Positions 30,366 through 40,650 of a stretch of DNA of 64,000 nt are shown piece after piece. Source of the stretch: Marinobacter sp. HL-58. Its GTDB lineage: Bacteria; Pseudomonadota; Gammaproteobacteria; Pseudomonadales; Oleiphilaceae. Made by a program: the position numbers and the translations under genes. The stretch is taken from positions 124,001 to 188,000 of the forward strand of contig NZ_LIHP01000021.1 in the NCBI RefSeq assembly GCF_001314605.1. Direction: 5' to 3'. How positions within the stretch are numbered: position 1 is the first letter of the stretch; each line of letters starts with the position of its first letter. The notes below the pieces were generated by a model. The model saw nothing but the letters and a program-made list of their open reading frames with translations. It searched no databases and was not told the origin of the DNA.

Positions 30366-30402
30366 TGTCCGGAAGCCAGGACAGTGTCCGGGCATCGGGA
30401 CA
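30366..30402. promoter_or_regulatory. Two tandem activator sites, TGTCC-N8-GGACA
   Basis: Two perfect copies of an 18-bp dyad, TGTCC then eight bases then GGACA, lie at 30366-30383 and 30385-30402. They start 181 and 162 bp upstream of the GG of the sigma-54 promoter at 30546. The same dyad precedes the TRAP operon promoter. They are read here as binding sites of the sigma-54 activator encoded at 32828-34273. The sequence match is direct observation. The protein that binds is inference. Confidence 0.7.
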
Positions 30403-30466
30403 TCTGTTCCATAGGGCTCCCAAGCGAAGTGAAACCTGCTTTTTTTATCCTTTTTCTTGACCTGAT

Positions 30467-30484
30467 TGTCCGGTAATCCGGAAA
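30467..30484. promoter_or_regulatory. Promoter-proximal activator half-match, TGTCC-N8-GGAAA
   Basis: A third site in the same region fits the 18-bp dyad with one mismatch (GGAAA for GGACA). It starts 80 bp upstream of the -24 GG. The proximal site of the TRAP promoter starts 83 bp upstream of its -24 GG, so the two promoters share the same arrangement. Confidence 0.5.
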
Positions 30485-30545
30485 TGGTTATTCCAGTTAA
30501 CCATACTGGTTTTAAAATATTTTTGTTTTCAATGGGTTGCCTTAT

Positions 30546-30561
30546 TGGCACAGGATGCGCA
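30546..30561 (+). promoter_or_regulatory. Sigma-54 promoter of the oligomer hydrolase gene
   Basis: TGGCACAGGATGCGCA matches the -24/-12 consensus (TGGCACG-N4-TTGCW), with GG at 30547-30548 and GC at 30559-30560 separated by exactly 10 bases. Transcription should begin near 30572, giving a leader of about 67 bases before the ATG at 30639. Putative activator sites lie 80-181 bp upstream. Confidence 0.75.
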
Positions 30562-30638
30562 TGGACGCACCTGTGGTGCCTGGTGTTTCTCTATGTGCGC
30601 CGGGTTCCCTTGTCTAACAAAAACAACAGGGAAAGATC

Positions 30639-32744
30639 ATGAAAACACTACTGCAATGCACATTGATCGGGGCAGTAACGTTAACCGTTTCTGCCTGCAA
30701 AGATTCCGACCTGCCTTTCAATCAGCTCCCGGACTTCGTTCAGGGCGACATCCACTCCGCCCAGTACGATGGCACAACCAATGACCTCCTTACCGGTGGT
30801 CTCGGAGCGAGCGGCCTGGCCGGCGGCGCGCCGGCCTTTGATGACCCCCTCAACCCGACACCCGAAGAGCTGCGAACCCTGGCTATCTACAATAATTACC
30901 GGGCCCTTGTGGATACCGCTGCCGGCGGTGGCTATGGCGAGTTCTTCGGGCCCCAGGTGGGAAGCGGAGGTGAAGGCCTGATCCCCGGGGAGGAGCATCT
31001 GGCCTACATGTCTGTTGAAGGCAGTGATGTGCCGGTTACCGTGATGGTACAGGTACCGGACAGTTTCGACCCTGCCGAGGCTTGCATGATAACCGCACCC
31101 TCGTCGGGCTCCCGGGGAATCTATGGCGCCATTGGCACTGCCGGTGAGTGGGGCCTGAAGAAAGGCTGTGCGGTAGTCTACACCGACAAAGGCACCGGTA
31201 CCGGTTCACACAACCTGGCCACCAATGCCGCCCAGCGCATCGACGGTACCCTGACCCGGGGTGACGAGCCGGTACAGTTCCGGGCCGATCTGGACGACCA
31301 GACAAGGGCAGATTTCAACGCCGACTGGCCGGACCGTTTTGCCTACAAGCATGCCCACTCGAAAGCCAACCCTGAGGCCGACTGGGGCCGCCATGTGCTT
31401 CAGTCCATTGAATTTGGTTTCTACATACTGAACGAGAAGTTCGGTCAGGAAACCGGTAACGGCCGCAAGGTGGTCAAGGTGAAGCCAAAGAATACCCTGG
31501 TGATTGCTTCCAGCGTTTCCAACGGCGGCGGGGCTTCTGTCCGTGCCGCGGAGCTGGATGACAGTGGCCTGATCGACGGTGTTGCGGTGTCGGAACCCAA
31601 CGTTAACCCGCAGGTGGATACCAGCTTCACGATCCGCCAGGGCGATGGCCCGGAGATTGTTGAGCACAGTCGCAGCCTGCTGGATTATACGACCGCTCTG
31701 GCGGTGTACCAGGGGTGTGCCAATATTGCCCCCGAGGTTCGGGATGAGGCGCCGTTGAACGCGGCTTTCAATGATGCCACGGTTGCCGGGAATATCTGTC
31801 ACTCCCTGGCCAACAAGGGCCTGATTTCCGGCGCCACGGTTGACGACCAGGCGTCCGATGCCCTGCGCATACTGGAAGAGGACTTTGGCATCCAGCCGGA
31901 GCAGAATCTGCTGGCCCCGGTGCACTTTGGCCTGGCCGTTGCCCAGAGCATTTCCATGACCTATTCCAATGCTTATGGCAGGGCGGGCGTCGAAGACCGG
32001 CTGTGTGGTATCAGCCTGGCTGCGACCGACGACGCGGGTGCGGTCATGCCGCTGTCGGCTGCCCAGGAAGCCGCCCTGTTCTCGTTCAGTAACGGTATTC
32101 CCCCCAGCGCCGGTGTGAACCTGGTTTATGACGGGGCCGAGGGGCAGCCCGTCAACCTGGCCGTGAGTGCATCGCCCAGTACCAGCCAACAGGATTATGG
32201 CCTGGATGCACTCCTGTGCCTGAGAAGTCTTGCCAGCGGCGCCGATGCGGTGACCGGTGCGCCACTTCCGGAGGATGCGGCTGAAGTAGCGGACCGGATC
32301 GCAGGCAGCATCGAGCAGATTCGCGCTTCAGGCAACCTGCAGGGCAAACCCGCGGTGTTCGTAACCGGTCGCGCTGACGCCATACTGCCCATCAACCACA
32401 CCTCGCGCCCTTATTTCGGGCTGAACCGGAGAGTCGAGGGTGACGCCAGTAACCTTCAGTACTACGAAATTCTCAATGCCCACCATCTGGATGTGCTCAA
32501 CGGTTTCAACGGGGTAAAGGAACGCTACATACCGTTGCATCACTACTACTTCCAGGCGCTGGATCTGGTCTGGAATGCCCTTGACGACGGCGAACCCCTG
32601 CCACCGAGTCAGGTGGTCAGAACGGTGCCCAGGGGCGAAGGCGCACCGGCGCTGACAGAGGCCAATCTCCCTGCCATCGCAAATACTCCCGCCGAGGAAG
32701 ACCGGATTGTGTTTGTGGAAGACCAGGTGCGGATTCCGGACTGA
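30639..32744 (+). CDS. 3-Hydroxybutyrate oligomer hydrolase family lipoprotein
   Basis: A 701-residue secreted hydrolase of the D-(-)-3-hydroxybutyrate oligomer hydrolase family, which splits soluble oligomers of 3-hydroxybutyrate into monomers. The signal peptide ends in a lipobox (VSAC, cysteine near residue 20), so it is probably an outer-membrane lipoprotein. Family landmarks are [33 protein letters not shown] and the nucleophile region [15 protein letters not shown]; the conserved end is around [20 protein letters not shown] sigma-54 promoter and activator sites lie upstream. It is followed by the activator gene after 83 bp. Confidence 0.88.
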
Positions 32745-32753
32745 ATCCCGTTT

Positions 32754-32769
32754 GCCCCGTTCGCGGGGC
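32754..32769 (+). terminator. GC hairpin after the oligomer hydrolase gene
   Basis: GCCCCG-TTCG-CGGGGC, a six-pair stem with a stable TTCG loop, starts 10 bases after the stop codon. There is no T run after it, so it may protect the mRNA end or reduce read-through rather than terminate fully. Confidence 0.4.
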
Positions 32770-32788
32770 ACCCATATACTTTGACGAT

Positions 32789-32814
32789 CGCTATCCGGCA
32801 CAGGCCGGGTAGCG
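32789..32814. promoter_or_regulatory. Inverted repeat just before the sigma-54 activator gene
   Basis: CGCTATCCGG and CCGGGTAGCG, nearly perfect 10-bp arms six bases apart, end 14 bases before the activator start codon. It could be an operator for autoregulation or a leader hairpin. It does not match the TGTCC-N8-GGACA dyad. Confidence 0.35.
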
Positions 32815-32827
32815 ACAGGGTATAACC

Positions 32828-34273
32828 ATGCAAGACACTCTTCCCGGCGGTAAGCAGTTCATGACACAGCTTTTTACCAAGAACAATAAAAGCGGGCTGA
32901 CGCGGGACCTGATCGAAGCCCTGTTCCCCATGTTCGAACAGGCCAGCGCCGGGGCCATTGTTGTGGATCTCGACAGCAGGATTACCTGGATCAATGCCAG
33001 CTATGCCACCTTGCTCGGGGTGTCTGACCCGGCAGCGGTTATCGGCAAACCCATCCGCCAGGTGATTCCCCACACCCGTATGCCGGAGGTGGTGGAGACC
33101 GGACGCCCGCTGTTGCTGGATATCATGGAACACCAGAAGCAACAGCTGGTGGTTACCCGGCTGCCTTTTTTTGACGATGCCGGTGCCGTTGTCGGGGCGG
33201 TTGCCTTTGTTCTCTATGACGACCTTCAGCCACTGACGCCATTGGTCAGCAAATACCGGCGCCTGCATCAGGATCTGGTTGCGGCCCGCAAGGCATTGGC
33301 CAAAAAATCCCGGGGCACACGCTACAGCCTCGGTGACTTTGTCGGAGCCAGTCCGGCAGCCCTGGAGGTCAAGCGCAGGGCCCGTCTGGCTGCGGGGCGT
33401 GACATGCCCGTGCTGATTCTGGGTGAAACCGGTACCGGCAAGGAGGTGCTTGCCCAGGCGATCCATTCGGTATCCGGCCGGGCGGAGCGGCCTTTCGTAG
33501 GTGTGAATGTGGCCGCCATACCGGAGAATCTGCTGGAGGCCGAATTCTTCGGAGTGGCTCCGGGAGCCTATACCGGTGCCGACCGTCGCACACGGGAGGG
33601 AAAATTCCAGTTGGCCAATACCGGCACGCTGTTCCTGGACGAGGTCGGCGACATGCCGCTGGCCCTTCAGGCCAAGCTGTTGCGGGCCCTGCAGGAGGGT
33701 GAAATTGAACCTCTGGGCTCCAACAAGGTGGTGTCAGTGGACGTGCGGGTTATTGCAGCCACCAGCCGAAATCTCGAGGCCATGATGGCGGAGGGAAGCT
33801 TCCGTTCGGATCTCTATTACCGGCTGAATGTACTGGAAATACCCATTCCGCCACTGCGGGATCGCATGCCGGACCTGGGTGTATTGTGTGAGGCCATTCT
33901 GGAGGATATCTGTGAAGGTCTCGAAATGCGCGGCGAGATCACGGATACAGCCATCGCCGCCCTTTCCAGCTATGACTGGCCAGGTAACATTCGCGAGCTG
34001 CGCAATGTGCTTGAACGGGCGCTGACCATGGGTGAGGATTCAGGCATTCTGGACTCCGATGCCATTTTCAAAGTGCTTCCCCGAAGTGGCAACCGTGTTC
34101 AGGCTTCGTCCATTGCCCAGCCCGTCCGTCCCCTTGCCCAGGTGCTGGCGGAAGCTGAGTCCCACGCCATCGAAGCGGCACTGGTGGCAAGCAGGGGAAA
34201 CCGGACCCGTGCAGCCAGAATACTGGGGATATCCCGATCCGTGCTCTATGAGAAGCTTGCGAAAATGTCCTGA
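32828..34273 (+). CDS. Sigma-54-dependent activator with PAS sensor domain (HbcR-like)
   Basis: A 481-residue enhancer-binding protein. It has an N-terminal PAS domain (about 30-135), then the AAA+ sigma-54 domain (about 168-400) with Walker A GETGTGKE at 199-206, the sigma-54 contact loop GAYTGA at 246-251 (a permitted variant of GAFTGA) and Walker B LFLDEV at 268-273. A Fis-type helix-turn-helix closes it (RGNRTRAARILGISRSVLY). It should drive open-complex formation by RpoN polymerase in response to a ligand of the PAS domain. The setting matches HbcR (PA2005) of Pseudomonas aeruginosa, which controls 3-hydroxybutyrate use. Its stop codon lies inside one of the putative upstream sites. Confidence 0.9.
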   Translation: MQDTLPGGKQFMTQLFTKNNKSGLTRDLIEALFPMFEQASAGAIVVDLDSRITWINASYATLLGVSDPAAVIGKPIRQVIPHTRMPEVVETGRPLLLDIMEHQKQQLVVTRLPFFDDAGAVVGAVAFVLYDDLQPLTPLVSKYRRLHQDLVAARKALAKKSRGTRYSLGDFVGASPAALEVKRRARLAAGRDMPVLILGETGTGKEVLAQAIHSVSGRAERPFVGVNVAAIPENLLEAEFFGVAPGAYTGADRRTREGKFQLANTGTLFLDEVGDMPLALQAKLLRALQEGEIEPLGSNKVVSVDVRVIAATSRNLEAMMAEGSFRSDLYYRLNVLEIPIPPLRDRMPDLGVLCEAILEDICEGLEMRGEITDTAIAALSSYDWPGNIRELRNVLERALTMGEDSGILDSDAIFKVLPRSGNRVQASSIAQPVRPLAQVLAEAESHAIEAALVASRGNRTRAARILGISRSVLYEKLAKMS

Positions 34274-34283
34274 TTTCAGGACA
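34266..34283. promoter_or_regulatory. Distal activator site before the TRAP operon, TGTCC-N8-GGACA
   Basis: TGTCCTGA-TT-TCAGGACA is a perfect 18-bp inverted repeat that includes the stop codon of the activator gene. It starts 146 bp upstream of the -24 GG of the TRAP operon promoter and exactly 63 bp, six helical turns, from the proximal site. Confidence 0.7.
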
Positions 34284-34328
34284 CCTGTCTTAATATCCGT
34301 ACAAACCCCTACCACCTTTGTCTATAAC

Positions 34329-34346
34329 TGTCTTTTTTTCCGGACA
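34329..34346. promoter_or_regulatory. Proximal activator site before the TRAP operon, TGTCT-N8-GGACA
   Basis: This 18-bp dyad shares TGTC, the central TTTC and GGACACC with the distal site. It starts 83 bp upstream of the -24 GG. The 63-bp distance puts both sites on the same face of the DNA, as expected for cooperative binding of enhancer-binding proteins. Confidence 0.6.
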
Positions 34347-34410
34347 CCCACCTGTTTGTCATTATTGGTCTAAACTCATAGAAGACTGATTCAAGGCACT
34401 TTTCAGGCGC

Positions 34411-34426
34411 TGGCACGGTGTCTGCT
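34411..34426 (+). promoter_or_regulatory. Sigma-54 promoter of the TRAP/3-hydroxybutyrate operon
   Basis: TGGCACGGTGTCTGCT is an almost perfect -24/-12 element: TGGCACG then four bases then CTGCT, with GG at 34412-34413 and GC at 34424-34425. Transcription should start near 34437, leaving a leader of about 160 bases before dctP. The gene-free stretch 34274-34596 holds this promoter and the proximal activator site. Confidence 0.82.
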
Positions 34427-34596
34427 ATAACAATCAGTGCAGGATGTCAGAATAACCGGGATAACAAGACTGACACTCACGTTGGACCCACCGATAAGTC
34501 CGTTTTGTTACCTGCGGGATCTGACTGAATTTCAGACCCGGTCTGCTGAGGCTGACCCCTGGCGGGCCGAACACAACAACAAGAAGGATCATCTTC

Positions 34597-35679
34597 ATGT
34601 CAATCAAACACAAGATTTCACGCCTGAGCTATGGCGTTGCAGCCGCAGCAGTCATCTCTGGCACTATGTTCAGCAGTAACGTGGCTGCTGAAAAAATTCG
34701 CTGGCAGTTGCCACTGGCATTTCCCTCTCATCTGGTTGGTCTGTCCACACCGGTGAAGCACCTTTCTGAAAACCTCAAGGCCATCTCCGGTGGTGATATC
34801 GAGTTTCGCTATTACGAGCCGGGTGAACTGGTTCCCCCGTTTGAAATCATGGATTCCGTGAGCGACGGCAAGTATCCGGCCGGCTACACCTGGGTTGGCT
34901 ATGATCAGGGCACTATTGCCGCGCTGCCGCTGTATTCGGGTGCCCCATTCAATATGGAACCTCCGGCTTACCTGGCGTGGTACTACGAGGGTGAAGGCAA
35001 GGAGCTGCTCGAGGAAATCTACGATGAGCGCAATATTCACCCGATGCTGTGCAGCATCATCGGTCCCGAAGGTGCCGGCTGGTTTGCGGACCCCATCGAG
35101 AGCCTGGATGACTTTGACGGGCTGAAGATCCGCTTCGCCGGTATTGGCGGCAAGGTGCTTGAGGAACTGGGTGCCTCGGTTACCATGATTCCGGGTGGCG
35201 AGATCTACCAAGCCCTGGAGCGCGGCACTATTGATGCGACCGAGTTCTCGCAGCCGGCCATCGACAAGATGCTGGGCCTGGACCAGATCATCAAGAATTA
35301 CATCATGCCGGGCTGGCACCAGACCCTGACCACCTCACACCTGCTGGTAAACAAGGACGTCTGGAACGATCTTGAGCCGCAGAGCCGTGCCCTGATCGAG
35401 ATGGGTTGTGAATCGGCCACCCTGAAGGGCCTTGCTGAGAGCGAGTTTGCCCAGCCGACCGCCCTGCGTGATTACGAGAGCGAAGGCGTGAATGCCCAGA
35501 CCCTGCCAGAGCCGGTACTTCGTGAACTCGAAAAAGCCACTAACAAGGTGCTTGATGACATTGCCGAAGAGGATGAAATGTTCGGACGTGTGCTCGAGAG
35601 TCAGCGTGAGTTCATGGAGCATCACTCCATCTGGCACAACAAGGGCTACCTGCCACGGGATTTCTATCAGTACGACTGA
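34597..35679 (+). CDS. dctP: TRAP transporter substrate-binding protein (DctP family)
   Basis: A 360-residue periplasmic binding protein with a signal peptide (about 1-31, ending NVAA). The mature part begins EKIRWQLPLAFPSHLVGLSTPVKHLSENL, then GGDIEFRYYEPGELVPP and the ligand-carboxylate arginine region GLKIRFAGIGGKVLEELG. It is closest in style to TakP-like proteins that bind 2-oxo or hydroxy monocarboxylates. Together with the downstream dehydrogenase this makes 3-hydroxybutyrate or acetoacetate the probable ligand (inference). It is the first gene of the operon under the sigma-54 promoter. A stable hairpin follows the stop codon, which could raise its mRNA level over the membrane subunits. 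Confidence 0.9.
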   Translation: MSIKHKISRLSYGVAAAAVISGTMFSSNVAAEKIRWQLPLAFPSHLVGLSTPVKHLSENLKAISGGDIEFRYYEPGELVPPFEIMDSVSDGKYPAGYTWVGYDQGTIAALPLYSGAPFNMEPPAYLAWYYEGEGKELLEEIYDERNIHPMLCSIIGPEGAGWFADPIESLDDFDGLKIRFAGIGGKVLEELGASVTMIPGGEIYQALERGTIDATEFSQPAIDKMLGLDQIIKNYIMPGWHQTLTTSHLLVNKDVWNDLEPQSRALIEMGCESATLKGLAESEFAQPTALRDYESEGVNAQTLPEPVLRELEKATNKVLDDIAEEDEMFGRVLESQREFMEHHSIWHNKGYLPRDFYQYD

Positions 35680-35700: not shown

Positions 35701-35724
35701 CAGGCACCGCTGCGGCGGTGCCTG
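35701..35724 (+). other. Intercistronic hairpin between dctP and dctQ
   Basis: CAGGCACCGC and GCGGTGCCTG form a perfect 10-pair stem with a TGCG loop, 21 bases after the dctP stop. It lacks a T run. Such hairpins after binding-protein genes often stabilise the upstream mRNA and lower expression of the membrane subunits. Confidence 0.5.
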
Positions 35725-35756
35725 TTGTCCCATCCCGTTCTGTATCCGAGGTTCCC

Positions 35757-36371
35757 GTGACTGAAAAGCACGATTCCCCTGAAGCCGCCGTGCCACATAC
35801 CGAGGCTGAACCGCTGCCGTACAACCGGCTGTCCTGGAAGCTGGACAGGTTCATTGTCACCATTGGCAAGGCCAGCTCCTGGCTCTGGATTGGCGTTTTG
35901 CTGGTCGTACTGGCGAATGTGTTCGCCCGTTTCATCCTCAATGCCGGCTCCGTGGCCCTGGAAGAAATGTCGTGGCATCTGTTTGGTGCTGCCATGATGC
36001 TGACACTCAGCTTTGCCGTGGTGAGGGATGACCATGTCCGGGTCGATGTGCTGCATGAAAAATTCTCCCTGAAAACACAGGCTGTTATCGAGCTTGCAGG
36101 GATTCTGGTTCTGGCGCTGCCGATCATCTATCTGATGATTGATGTACTGATTCCCTATGCCTACAAAGCCTTTGAGCTTAATGAGCGCTCCCAGGCGCCG
36201 AGTGGGTTGCCTTATCGGTTTATCTTCAAAAGCGTGTTGCCACTGTCGCTGATACTGGTCTGGATTGCATTGTTCTCCCGGGCCCTGCGCTGTTCCACGC
36301 TGTTGTTCCGCTTCCCGCGGGAAATCCAAATTCCTCGTGATGACCGCAATGGCGGCCATCCGCATCCCTGA
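35757..36371 (+). CDS. dctQ: TRAP transporter small membrane subunit (DctQ family)
   Basis: A 204-residue protein with four membrane helices, including LWIGVLLVVLANVFARFIL and MSWHLFGAAMMLTLSFAVVRDDHVRVD. The end of the latter is the DctQ signature. It pairs with DctM to form the ion-coupled permease. I chose the GTG at 35757 because CGAGG stands five bases before it; the upstream GTG at 35718 falls within the intercistronic hairpin. It starts 77 bp after dctP and ends 18 bp before dctM. Confidence 0.88.
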   Translation: MTEKHDSPEAAVPHTEAEPLPYNRLSWKLDRFIVTIGKASSWLWIGVLLVVLANVFARFILNAGSVALEEMSWHLFGAAMMLTLSFAVVRDDHVRVDVLHEKFSLKTQAVIELAGILVLALPIIYLMIDVLIPYAYKAFELNERSQAPSGLPYRFIFKSVLPLSLILVWIALFSRALRCSTLLFRFPREIQIPRDDRNGGHPHP

Positions 36372-36389: not shown

Positions 36390-37760
36390 ATGGGTCTGGA
36401 AGAAATTCTTGTAATCGCCATGTTTGCCAGCTTTATGCTGCTGTTGATGCTGGGTTTTCCGGTGGCATGGTCGCTGGCCGGTATTGGCCTTGTTTTCGGG
36501 GTAACGGGTTTTATTCTGGTTGAATATTTCGACGCGGATACCTGGTTTACCTGGAACGGCACCATTGGTGCCCTGGACTCCCGTATCTACGGGATAGTCG
36601 CCAATGAGTTGATGGTGGCGCTGCCGCTGTTCATATTCATGGGTATCATGCTGGACCGCTCCGGCATTGCTGAAAAACTGATGCACAGCCTGGTCCGGGT
36701 GTTGGGCCCGCTGCGGGGTGGTTACGCCGTTACGGTGGTCATTGTCGGCGTGTTGCTGGCAGCGTCCACGGGAATTGTCGGTGCCTCTGTGGTGTTGCTG
36801 GGTATGTTGTCACTGGGGCCGATGATGCAGGCCAACTACAACAAGCCGTTGGCTGTGGGTACGGCATGCTCGGTCGGTACGCTGGGCATCCTGGTGCCGC
36901 CGAGCATCATGCTGGTGCTGATGGCAGACAGGCTTGGCACCTCCGATGCGTCTGTGGGCAAGTTGTTCATGGGTGCCCTGATTCCGGGCGTCATGCTGGG
37001 GGTTATGTACATCCTCTACATCCTGATTGCGTCTTATATCAAAAAAGACCTGGCGCCGGCGCCCAGAAATCGCGAACCGCTGACGGCCAGGGCGCTTCTG
37101 GATGTTTTTATTGCTGTAGTGCCTCCGCTGGTGCTTATCATGGCGGTGCTCGGCTCCATTTTCTTCGGCATAGCCACCACCACCGAAGCATCAGCCGTAG
37201 GTGCTGCGGGCGCAATGCTGATGGCCTTTACCAGTCGTCGGCTTGATCTGGAAGTACTGAAAGACTCGCTCTACCAGACCAGCCGTACCACGGCCTTTAT
37301 CTTCGGGATTTTCATTGGGGCGACGGTGTTCGCTGCGGTACTGAGGGGGCTTGGAGGTGACGATGTTATCCGGGCGGCCATCAACGGCCTGCCATTCGGT
37401 ACAACCGGTGTATTGCTGACCATACTCTTCATTACCTTCCTGCTGGGCTTCTTCCTGGACTGGGTGGAGATCACTCTGATCATCCTGCCTCTGGTTGCGC
37501 CGGTTGTCTTCTCGCTGGGTGTGGAGCCGGTTTGGTTCGCCATCATGTTTGCCATGTGTCTGCAGACATCCTTCCTGACACCGCCGGTGGGATTCTCGCT
37601 GTTCTATATCAAGGGCGTGTGTCCACCGGGAATTACCACCCGCCATATCTACCTGGGCGTAATGCCGTTTATTGCACTGCAATTACTGGGTCTGGCACTC
37701 GTTTTCTGGTTTGAACCCCTGGCCACCTGGTTGCCCAATGAGGTTTACGGGGGGCCCTGA
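36390..37760 (+). CDS. dctM: TRAP transporter large membrane subunit (DctM family)
   Basis: A 456-residue protein with about twelve membrane helices, the Na+-coupled translocation subunit. Typical stretches are LPLFIFMGIMLDRSGIAEKL, STGIVGASVVLLGMLSLGPM, GTLGILVPPSIMLVLMAD and LQTSFLTPPVGFSLFYIKGV. It works with DctQ and the periplasmic DctP to import an organic acid. AGAGG stands ten bases before the ATG. A strong hairpin follows before the dehydrogenase gene, which is in the same direction and probably in the same operon. Confidence 0.92.
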   Translation: MGLEEILVIAMFASFMLLLMLGFPVAWSLAGIGLVFGVTGFILVEYFDADTWFTWNGTIGALDSRIYGIVANELMVALPLFIFMGIMLDRSGIAEKLMHSLVRVLGPLRGGYAVTVVIVGVLLAASTGIVGASVVLLGMLSLGPMMQANYNKPLAVGTACSVGTLGILVPPSIMLVLMADRLGTSDASVGKLFMGALIPGVMLGVMYILYILIASYIKKDLAPAPRNREPLTARALLDVFIAVVPPLVLIMAVLGSIFFGIATTTEASAVGAAGAMLMAFTSRRLDLEVLKDSLYQTSRTTAFIFGIFIGATVFAAVLRGLGGDDVIRAAINGLPFGTTGVLLTILFITFLLGFFLDWVEITLIILPLVAPVVFSLGVEPVWFAIMFAMCLQTSFLTPPVGFSLFYIKGVCPPGITTRHIYLGVMPFIALQLLGLALVFWFEPLATWLPNEVYGGP

Positions 37761-37820: not shown

Positions 37821-37862
37821 CATTTCGAGACTGAATTGATACAACAACAAGGAGATGACGCC

Positions 37863-38642
37863 ATGCGTCTCAAAGACCAAGTTGCGCTTATAACCGGCGC
37901 TGGCCGCGGTATCGGCCGTGCAGTTGCAGAGCATTATGCCCGTGAGGGTGCCAAAGTGGCTGTTGCCGACCTGGACCTGGCCGGCGCCCAACAGGTTGTG
38001 GACGCCATCGAAGCCAGCGGCGGTTCTGCCATGGCCCTGGCCATGGATGTGACCGATGAAAAGGCCGTTGATGACGGGGTAGCTGCCATTGTCGAGCGCT
38101 GGGGCAGGCTGGATATTGCCCTGGCCAACGCGGGTATTCAGCATATAGATCCAGTCCACAAGCTGTCATTCAGTAACTGGAGCAAGGTGATGAGTGTGCA
38201 CCTGGACGGTGCTTTTCTGGTCACCCGGGCTGCCCTCAATCAGATGTATGCCGGCAACGGTGGTACCATGCTTTACATGGGCTCGGTACACTCCCTTGAG
38301 GCATCGCCACTGAAAGCACCCTACGTGGCGGCCAAGCACGGCATGCTCGGCCTCTGCCGTGCGGTCGCTAAAGAGGGGGCGGAACATGGCGTGCGCAGTA
38401 ACATCATCTGCCCCGGCTTCGTGCGGACACCATTGGTGGACAAGCAGATTCCCGAGCAGGCGAAGGAACTGGGTATTTCAGAAGAGGAAGTCATCAGCAA
38501 GGTCATGTTGAAAAATACCGTGGACGGAAAGTTCACCACTCTGGAAGATGTATCGGAGCTGGCAGTGCATCTGGCCGCCTTCCCTTCGGCCGCCATGACC
38601 GGCCAGTCCATTGTGGTCAGCCACGGCTGGCATATGCAGTAA
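37863..38642 (+). CDS. bdhA: 3-Hydroxybutyrate dehydrogenase (short-chain dehydrogenase)
   Basis: A 259-residue SDR that oxidises (R)-3-hydroxybutyrate to acetoacetate with NAD+. The cofactor loop is TGAGRGIG at 11-18. The catalytic residues are S141, Y154 and K158 in YMGSVHS and YVAAKHG. The end, [22 protein letters not shown] then [13 protein letters not shown], is specific to 3-hydroxybutyrate dehydrogenases. Position 113, where most SDRs have the catalytic Asn, is His (SVHLDG), as I recall for one branch of this family. AAGGAG stands before the ATG at 37863, which is preferred over the frame start at 37836. It is 16 bp from the next gene. Confidence 0.9.
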
Positions 38643-38658
38643 GCAACAGGAGAGACGG

Positions 38659-40650
<1,992 letters not shown>

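Follow-up and report, generated by a model that had tools for sequence, protein, structure and literature searches.

A conserved dyad as the likely upstream activating sequence of an HbcR-like sigma-54 activator in Marinobacter

Introduction

An activator gene that lies between two -24/-12 promoters raises the question of where its product would bind and which genes it would control. We addressed this question for a locus of Marinobacter sp. HL-58, contained in a stretch of 64,000 nucleotides (positions 124,001 to 188,000 of contig NZ_LIHP01000021.1; this whole stretch is hereafter the window, and coordinates refer to it). An hbcR-like gene is preceded there by the gene of a 3-hydroxybutyrate (3HB) oligomer hydrolase and followed by genes for a tripartite ATP-independent periplasmic (TRAP) transporter and for 3HB metabolism. 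Each of these two groups has a sigma-54 promoter in front of it, and an 18-bp dyad, TGTCC-N8-GGACA, recurs upstream of both. The original prediction held that the dyad is the binding site of the HbcR-like activator. A genome scan, the relatives and homologous activator loci elsewhere support this claim at the level of sequence, and we put at roughly 87% the probability that the activator drives both the hydrolase-hbcR unit and the TRAP/3HB operon from the dyad as its upstream activating sequence. We read it in this way because of its spacing, the conservation of its arms, its link to hbcR and its blind recovery in distant loci.

A 2015 paper on HbcR reportedly, to go by its title, has HbcR act with RpoN on (R)-3HB metabolism, and HbcR is also said to control bdhA. 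According to the accessible parts of two further papers, HbcR of P. aeruginosa (PA2005) regulates (R)-3HB catabolism (PMC8694187; PMC8657755), and parts of a third describe activation of P. fluorescens HbcR by (R)-3HB as possible (PMC10482368).

Results

Both sigma-54 promoters lie where they had been predicted, that of the hydrolase/hbcR unit at 30546-30561 (plus strand; TGGCACAGGATGCGCA) and that of the TRAP operon at 34411-34426 (plus strand; TGGCACGGTGTCTGCT). Upstream of the first are two perfect distal dyads (the dyads are listed without strand), A at 30366-30383 (TGTCCGGAAGCCAGGACA) and B at 30385-30402 (TGTCCGGGCATCGGGACA), the start of B being 19 bp past that of A, and a proximal dyad at 30467-30484 (TGTCCGGTAATCCGGAAA) with one mismatch, 80 bp 5' of the -24 GG. 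The TRAP promoter has a perfect distal dyad at 34266-34283 (TGTCCTGATTTCAGGACA), a middle one at 34286-34303 (TGTCTTAATATCCGTACA) that starts 20 bp past the distal start and has two mismatches, and a proximal one at 34329-34346 (TGTCTTTTTTTCCGGACA) with one mismatch, 83 bp 5' of the -24 GG. The original prediction had named all of these except the middle TRAP site, which is kept in relatives; its five dyads, its distances of 80 and 83 bp and its 63-bp spacing between TRAP sites are correct, and its count of two TRAP sites has to be raised to three. A stricter sigma-54 pattern fits TGGCACGGTGTCTGCT only and not TGGCACAGGATGCGCA, and the hydrolase promoter has an atypical -12 part (GCGCA, not TTGCW), yet GG-N10-GC is kept in an alignment of 56 hydrolase promoters. 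WATCAANNNNTTR is the consensus of integration host factor (IHF); an IHF-like site with one mismatch to it lies at 30527-30539 (plus strand; TTTCAATGGGTTG) in the hydrolase promoter region, and one with two mismatches at 34379-34391 (minus strand) in that of the TRAP operon.

At one mismatch or fewer the window holds 11 dyads, five of them in the two promoter regions, compared with a mean of 2.74 (largest 7) in 100 dinucleotide shuffles. Perfect dyads number five instead of the three first counted; the two additional ones, at 35830 and 46512, lie outside the promoters and in open frames, the latter within a frame of 524 codons. The dyad at 35830-35847 is inside dctQ, where similar sequence also occurs in the dctQ of four other loci (L132, L133, L143 and L144); it probably reflects the encoded peptide and was set aside as probably coding. 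The estimate of 0.06 perfect dyads expected per 64 kb had assumed equal base use and has to be qualified. In the whole genome of 4.24 Mb perfect dyads number 12, compared with 7 for the reversed pattern, and the longer same-genus consensus TGTCCKG-N4-CMGGACA is matched with at most one mismatch at 17 places (control, 5). Because of the 12 to 7 ratio a lone dyad is weak evidence, and the case rests on cluster, spacing and conservation.

We inspected 17 dyads elsewhere in the genome, 7 of them perfect and 10 differing at one position from the longer consensus; the extra perfect dyads of the window (35830 and 46512) were located but are not among these 17. Sixteen fall in frames that run for 120 codons or more without a stop, though this does not prove coding, and the remaining one (L124, C8:313138), which lies in no long frame, is solitary. 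At none was there a second dyad within 250 bp (at one mismatch or fewer; weaker dyads were not sought) or a sigma-54 match scoring 13 or more. Six have sigma-54 matches of 12-12.5; since the true hydrolase promoter itself scores 12.5, the sigma-54 score fails to separate them, and clustering and spacing do. Among dyads with at most one mismatch, and with promoters taken from the matches listed, clustering with sigma-54 promoters is confined to this locus. A wider regulon in this genome, considered at the same stringency, was rejected, the further dyads being solitary and nearly all in open frames.

Conservation was examined in 100 genomes of the same genus, 93 of which, the window's included, have an hbcR ortholog; in the seven others the best E-values, about 1e-67 to 1e-76, are at paralog level. 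We compared 80 of the 92 other hbcR loci and scored 80 TRAP promoters (79 and the window's), one locus (L110) being dropped from the TRAP scoring as dctP was not found. Sought in preset intervals 7 or 8 positions wide, sites with at most two mismatches were present in 79/80 promoters (distal), 77/80 (middle) and 80/80 (proximal), and all three in 76/80; control intervals within the same promoters gave 0/320. At one mismatch or fewer the distal dyad is present in 77/80. The distal and proximal sites are 63 bp apart in 78 of 79 promoters and the distal and middle sites 20 bp apart in all 76 scored, and the proximal site lies 81-84 bp from the -24 GG in the 79 promoters. Left and right arms carry 1.96 and 1.69 bits at the distal site, 1.66 and 1.59 at the middle and 1.67 and 1.61 at the proximal (80 promoters), with 1.38, 0.83 and 0.85 bits in the respective spacers; the 63-base stretch that separates the proximal site from the promoter carries 0.48 bits and the promoter itself 1.42.

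The hydrolase promoters (n = 56, window included) behave in the same manner. A proximal site with at most two mismatches lies at 80-82 bp in 52 of them, and distal dyads at that stringency number at least one in 55 and two in 40, with 2.8% of shuffles having at least one. The dyads are thus retained in relatives at fixed distances, repeated and positionally conserved 80-200 bp upstream. The -24/-12 element GG-N10-GC is conserved in both promoter alignments; a separate promoter-finding pass required GG-N10-GC and so counts as no independent test. IHF-like sites with at most one mismatch occur in 29/56 hydrolase promoters (20 at the window's offset; shuffles, about 10%) and in 43/80 TRAP promoters (34 at the window's offset; shuffles, about 17%).

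A strict pattern (TGTCC-N8-GGACR, 50-80 bases, TGGCAY-N5-YNGCW) was found in 40 of the 100 same-genus genomes, once in each, and the reversed control gave none. It misses the window's own genome because of the mismatched proximal sites and the ill-fitting -12 element of the hydrolase promoter. By coordinates compared by eye, 39 of the 40 matches are at the hbcR locus, so that the description of the regulon as self-contained is largely right; the part that fails concerns one genome, G095, in which the match precedes the gene of an esterase of the poly(3-hydroxybutyrate) (PHB) depolymerase type. This dyad and sigma-54 site of G095 lies 5' of a frame of 588 codons whose product carries an Esterase_PHB domain (PF10503), and the esterase is, on sequence grounds, a probable extra regulon member in 1/100 same-genus genomes under the strict pattern. 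The frame (L233, G095:C36, 1828-3594, minus strand) also encodes an Ig-like domain, and its assignment to the PHB-depolymerase type is a prediction.

The same genome has a relocated hydrolase. We searched for the hydrolase in 33 genomes (7 without hbcR, 21 from loci with no hydrolase start found, and 5 additional) and found it in one, G095, on another contig, where its sigma-54 promoter is kept together with dyads at 80 and 173 bp, each with one mismatch. Where hydrolase and hbcR are linked, the gap between them has a median of 115 bases (loci aligned to the hydrolase end). Among the 25 loci with no hydrolase start found upstream, a dyad/sigma-54 promoter stands directly before hbcR in five (L032, L069, L072, L099 and L105).

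The TRAP distal dyad overlaps the last eight bases of hbcR, TGA stop included. Its left arm TGTCC is encoded by NTG-TCC-TGA, so that the last Ser codon of hbcR (TCC) is within the arm; this last codon is TCC in 76 of the 78 genes ending there and the stop is TGA in all 78, compared with a TCC share of 21.7% among 1805 Ser codons elsewhere in hbcR. In the remaining three of 81 loci (L071, L107 and L108) the arm reads TGTCCGG and the frame of hbcR continues past the usual stop. With an operator written into the stop codon of its activator, gene and switch could move as one cassette.

The DctP binding proteins of the genus are of two kinds, 49-53% identical to the window's in 55 of 79 loci and 78-91% identical in 24; the operators are the same, and apparently the binding protein was replaced and the switch retained.

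Homologs beyond the genus came from a search of the order (293 genomes, 31 matches at E <= 1e-100, ten of them same-genus besides the window's own) and of the phylum (398 genomes, 34 matches at E <= 1e-105). The resulting set comprises 40 stretches and six annotated plasmid records, these six being the ones examined of 35 plasmid records with a relative. A genome search with two AAA+ motifs returned mostly distant activators and was left unused. In 43 of the 46 loci (without L132, L133 and L294) we counted 2816 palindromes, 256 four-base palindromes at spacers of 4-14, over some 370 bases on either side of the activator gene and with no sigma-54 condition; the 43 loci contain close relatives and are not 43 independent cases. 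The three leading palindromes were GTCT-N8-AGAC (23 loci), TCTC-N6-GAGA (17) and TGTC-N10-GACA (13), with a background mean of 0.69 loci and a next best of 11; the best direct-repeat control, a GC-rich 4-mer, reached 13. All three are parts of one 18-bp dyad, TGTCTC-N6-GAGACA.

When a sigma-54 match was required as well, 29 of 45 loci had a site no more than 700 bp away from the activator homolog, and in 12 of 27 (L132 and L133 left out) it lies 80-84 bp from the -24 GG. L294, from A. ramasamyi, was excluded from this count, as from the palindrome scan and the tree. TGTCTC-type sites stand at sigma-54 promoters in Cupriavidus taiwanensis, where a GntP permease and a 3-hydroxybutyrate dehydrogenase adjoin, and in a plasmid record of Burkholderia stagnalis; three Azospirillum plasmid records and Mariluticola gave no convincing site.

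The arm sequence varies with the recognition helix of the activator. Lys helices (LYKK, FYKK or MYKK; 20 loci) go with TGTCTC, the LYEK helix of the window's genus with TGTCC(G/T), and Gln-type helices (3 loci) with TGTCT(A/T). Of the 53 half-sites at the 20 Lys loci, 50 have T as arm base 5 and 47 have C as base 6, counts in which some sites enter twice, against two promoter matches. All Lys proteins form a single clade (21 tree rows); the change of arm is therefore one event in this sample, and the causal residue a guess. L141 and L146 have Glu with mixed arms, which weakens the link between residue and operator. Among the five Glu loci with a match, L132 and L133 are near-copies of the window cassette, and L271 and L288 have weak, probably chance sites.

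The activators of L132 and L133 (genomes G275 and G177, which belong to another family, f43) are 85-86% identical to the window's. In the tree they nest among four rows of the window's genus, and their TRAP operators lie at 144, 124 and 81 bp. This nesting, together with the kept operators, suggests horizontal transfer of the activator/TRAP cassette, which we regard as probable from the sequences compared.

The genes of the locus all lie on the plus strand. The 3HB-oligomer hydrolase (30639-32744; PF10605, E = 3.5e-255) shows by eye a lipobox-like LTVSAC. The hbcR-like activator (32828-34273) has a PAS domain, a sigma-54 AAA+ domain and a Fis-type helix-turn-helix, the domain set of HbcR, with GAYTGA instead of GAFTGA in the AAA+ domain (by eye). 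Family matches identify the TRAP solute-binding protein DctP (34597-35679), whose best match among solved structures is a protein named ketoacid-binding, the small permease DctQ (35718-36371) and the large permease DctM (36390-37760). They are followed by a 3-hydroxybutyrate dehydrogenase (37836-38642; NF009931, above cut-off) and an acetoacetate--CoA ligase (38656-40650; TIGR01217, above cut-off). The activator gene is thus linked to a 3-hydroxybutyrate dehydrogenase gene, as expected of an hbcR, and such a gene also adjoins some activator homologs in other genera. The genome contains rpoN. No intrinsic-terminator-like site was reported in the hbcR-dctP gap, and a sigma-70-like match 5' of hbcR (32752-32780) is at chance level (2 found and 1.4 expected in the scanned stretch).

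A hairpin without a T run, GCCCCG-TTCG-CGGGGC, was seen by eye at 32754-32769 between hydrolase and hbcR and could tune read-through from one to the other. A divergent BD-FAE-type esterase gene (PF20434; 29346-30239, minus strand) has its intergenic region in common with the hydrolase promoter, and relatives of it are near hbcR in L234 and L236 as well.

Discussion

We propose that in the presence of (R)-3HB, HbcR dimers would occupy the two distal sites, 19-20 bp apart, and the one proximal site some 80-84 bp 5' of the -24 element, and would there assemble the AAA+ hexamer. A bend in the DNA, possibly made through IHF, would then allow the hexamer to open the sigma-54 polymerase complex at two promoters. 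From promoter 1 the 3HB-oligomer hydrolase would be expressed and, via likely read-through, hbcR itself, giving positive feedback; from promoter 2 the TRAP uptake genes, the 3HB dehydrogenase and the acetoacetate--CoA ligase. We infer the ligand and the feedback loop from homology and gene order; binding, induction, rpoN dependence, the hexamer, the role of IHF and co-transcription are predictions of this scheme. Positive feedback is likely for most of the linked loci. We rejected the idea that autoregulation is obligatory, given the loci in which no convincing promoter precedes hbcR.

Several results weigh against the proposed role of the dyad or narrow it. In 20 of the 25 loci for which we identified no hydrolase start, a convincing dyad and sigma-54 arrangement was not seen in the 600 bp 5' of hbcR, one of these loci (L035) having a single weak match with two mismatches that we judged to be chance; in L059, L077 and L098 a hydrolase fragment lies upstream and the promoter would fall beyond the scan, which for L081 covered 145 bp only. 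In two of 55 linked loci (L062 and L066) the hydrolase ends about 1.4 kb 5' of hbcR. One same-genus locus, L106, is without a TRAP dyad at one mismatch or fewer. Conservation also extends beyond the arms, with 0.84 bits in the 25 bases between middle and proximal site and 1.14 bits after the promoter (34427-34500). The IHF-like sites are weak, that of the window's TRAP promoter having two mismatches. The absence of the strict pattern from all seven hbcR-less genomes is weak evidence, since it is matched in only 40 of the 93 others. In 16 of 45 loci beyond the genus we found no dyad and sigma-54 site up to 700 bp from the gene. In this wider set, which may include paralogs, the operator is therefore not universal.

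Three other explanations have to be considered. That the dyads arose by chance, or as a side effect of coding constraint and of the local base composition, is barely credible. It could draw on the excess of perfect dyads over the reversed pattern in the genome and on the coding left arm of the TRAP distal site, but it is contradicted by the clusters, the fixed spacing, the arms conserved in non-coding DNA and the blind recovery at distant loci. A regulator other than HbcR, be it a repressor or a second activator, could bind the dyad while the HbcR site lies elsewhere, and the genome does encode other sigma-54 activators, the window protein having 14 scored matches there, itself included. We hold this to be improbable: the register of the dyad accompanies the hbcR homolog in other families, where the gene order differs, its inner arm varies with the HbcR clade, and its distances from the promoters are typical of an upstream activating sequence.

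The remaining explanation touches the ligand alone and is compatible with the operator assignment. HbcR would bind the dyad, and the signal would be acetoacetate, another short hydroxy acid or a 3HB oligomer. The ketoacid-binding name of DctP's best structural match is in its favor, as is a reading by others of conserved residues in the PA2005 PAS domain, which were taken to indicate autoinducer binding (PMC8694187). In P. fluorescens, however, motility was rescued at once by overexpressed HbcR and added (R)-3HB, according to part of the report (PMC10482368), and the hydrolase, the dehydrogenase and the ligase all indicate 3HB. A different ligand is thus unlikely, if somewhat less so than a different regulator, and HbcR responding to (R)-3HB through the dyad is the reading we retain.

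The binding sites of NtrC, NifA and NorR are short inverted repeats 80-200 bp 5' of a -24/-12 promoter, in many cases with an intervening IHF site. The window promoters resemble NtrC-type upstream activating sequences in their inverted repeats, in the distance of 80-200 bp and in the -24/-12 promoter, and differ from them in arm sequence, in the three TRAP sites, in the 63-bp frame (78/79) and in a distal site that overlaps the activator's own stop. AtoC, a two-component response regulator, is likewise a sigma-54 activator and concerned with the use of short-chain keto acids, and NCBIfam notes a similarity to the window protein; the latter scores 309 bits, below the 714-bit equivalog cut-off, and has a PAS domain. 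The closest likeness is to HbcR of Pseudomonas, which is also a sigma-54 enhancer-binding protein with an N-terminal PAS domain and a link to (R)-3HB catabolism, as far as the accessible parts of two papers go (PMC8694187, PMC10482368). The window activator is 48-55% identical to homologs of family f20, taken for Pseudomonadaceae from gene order, and falls in one tree with them. The targets differ, a 3HB-oligomer hydrolase and a TRAP transporter in the window's genus compared with a GntP permease adjoining the annotated Cupriavidus homolog, and so does the arm, TGTCCK compared with TGTCTC in HbcR-type homologs.

Searched for in five notations, the dyad did not turn up in the literature covered, which did not include the text of the 2015 HbcR paper; within that scope the result agrees with the earlier statement that no published description of this operator was known. 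PA2005/HbcR is not mentioned in the main text, supplements being outside the scope, of a P. aeruginosa atlas of high-throughput systematic evolution of ligands by exponential enrichment (PMC8041468) or of a 2026 chromatin immunoprecipitation sequencing study (PMC13086498). Systems of this kind are known; what appears to be new, on the literature covered, is the operator with its three-site frame and its spread.

A broader view, which we hold tentatively and at a little under even odds, is that the HbcR family reads a single old 18-bp frame, TGTC-N10-GACA, among gamma- and betaproteobacteria and one or more additional classes of the phylum (alphaproteobacteria would fit), with a site 80-84 bp from the sigma-54 promoter in many of these genomes. 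The inner arm would follow one residue of the recognition helix, so that the operator could have been re-coded and its geometry kept. If this is true, re-coded operators would give testable orthogonal 3-hydroxybutyrate sensors.

In conclusion, 3-hydroxybutyrate is set free from PHB, which is both a natural storage polymer and a biodegradable plastic, and the additional regulon member of G095 would link a PHB-depolymerase-type esterase to the same switch. Knowledge of the operator of a 3HB sensor would aid the prediction of regulons in many genomes and the design of 3HB biosensors, and the locus may serve as a system in which the joint change of an enhancer-binding protein and its site can be studied under a fixed promoter geometry.

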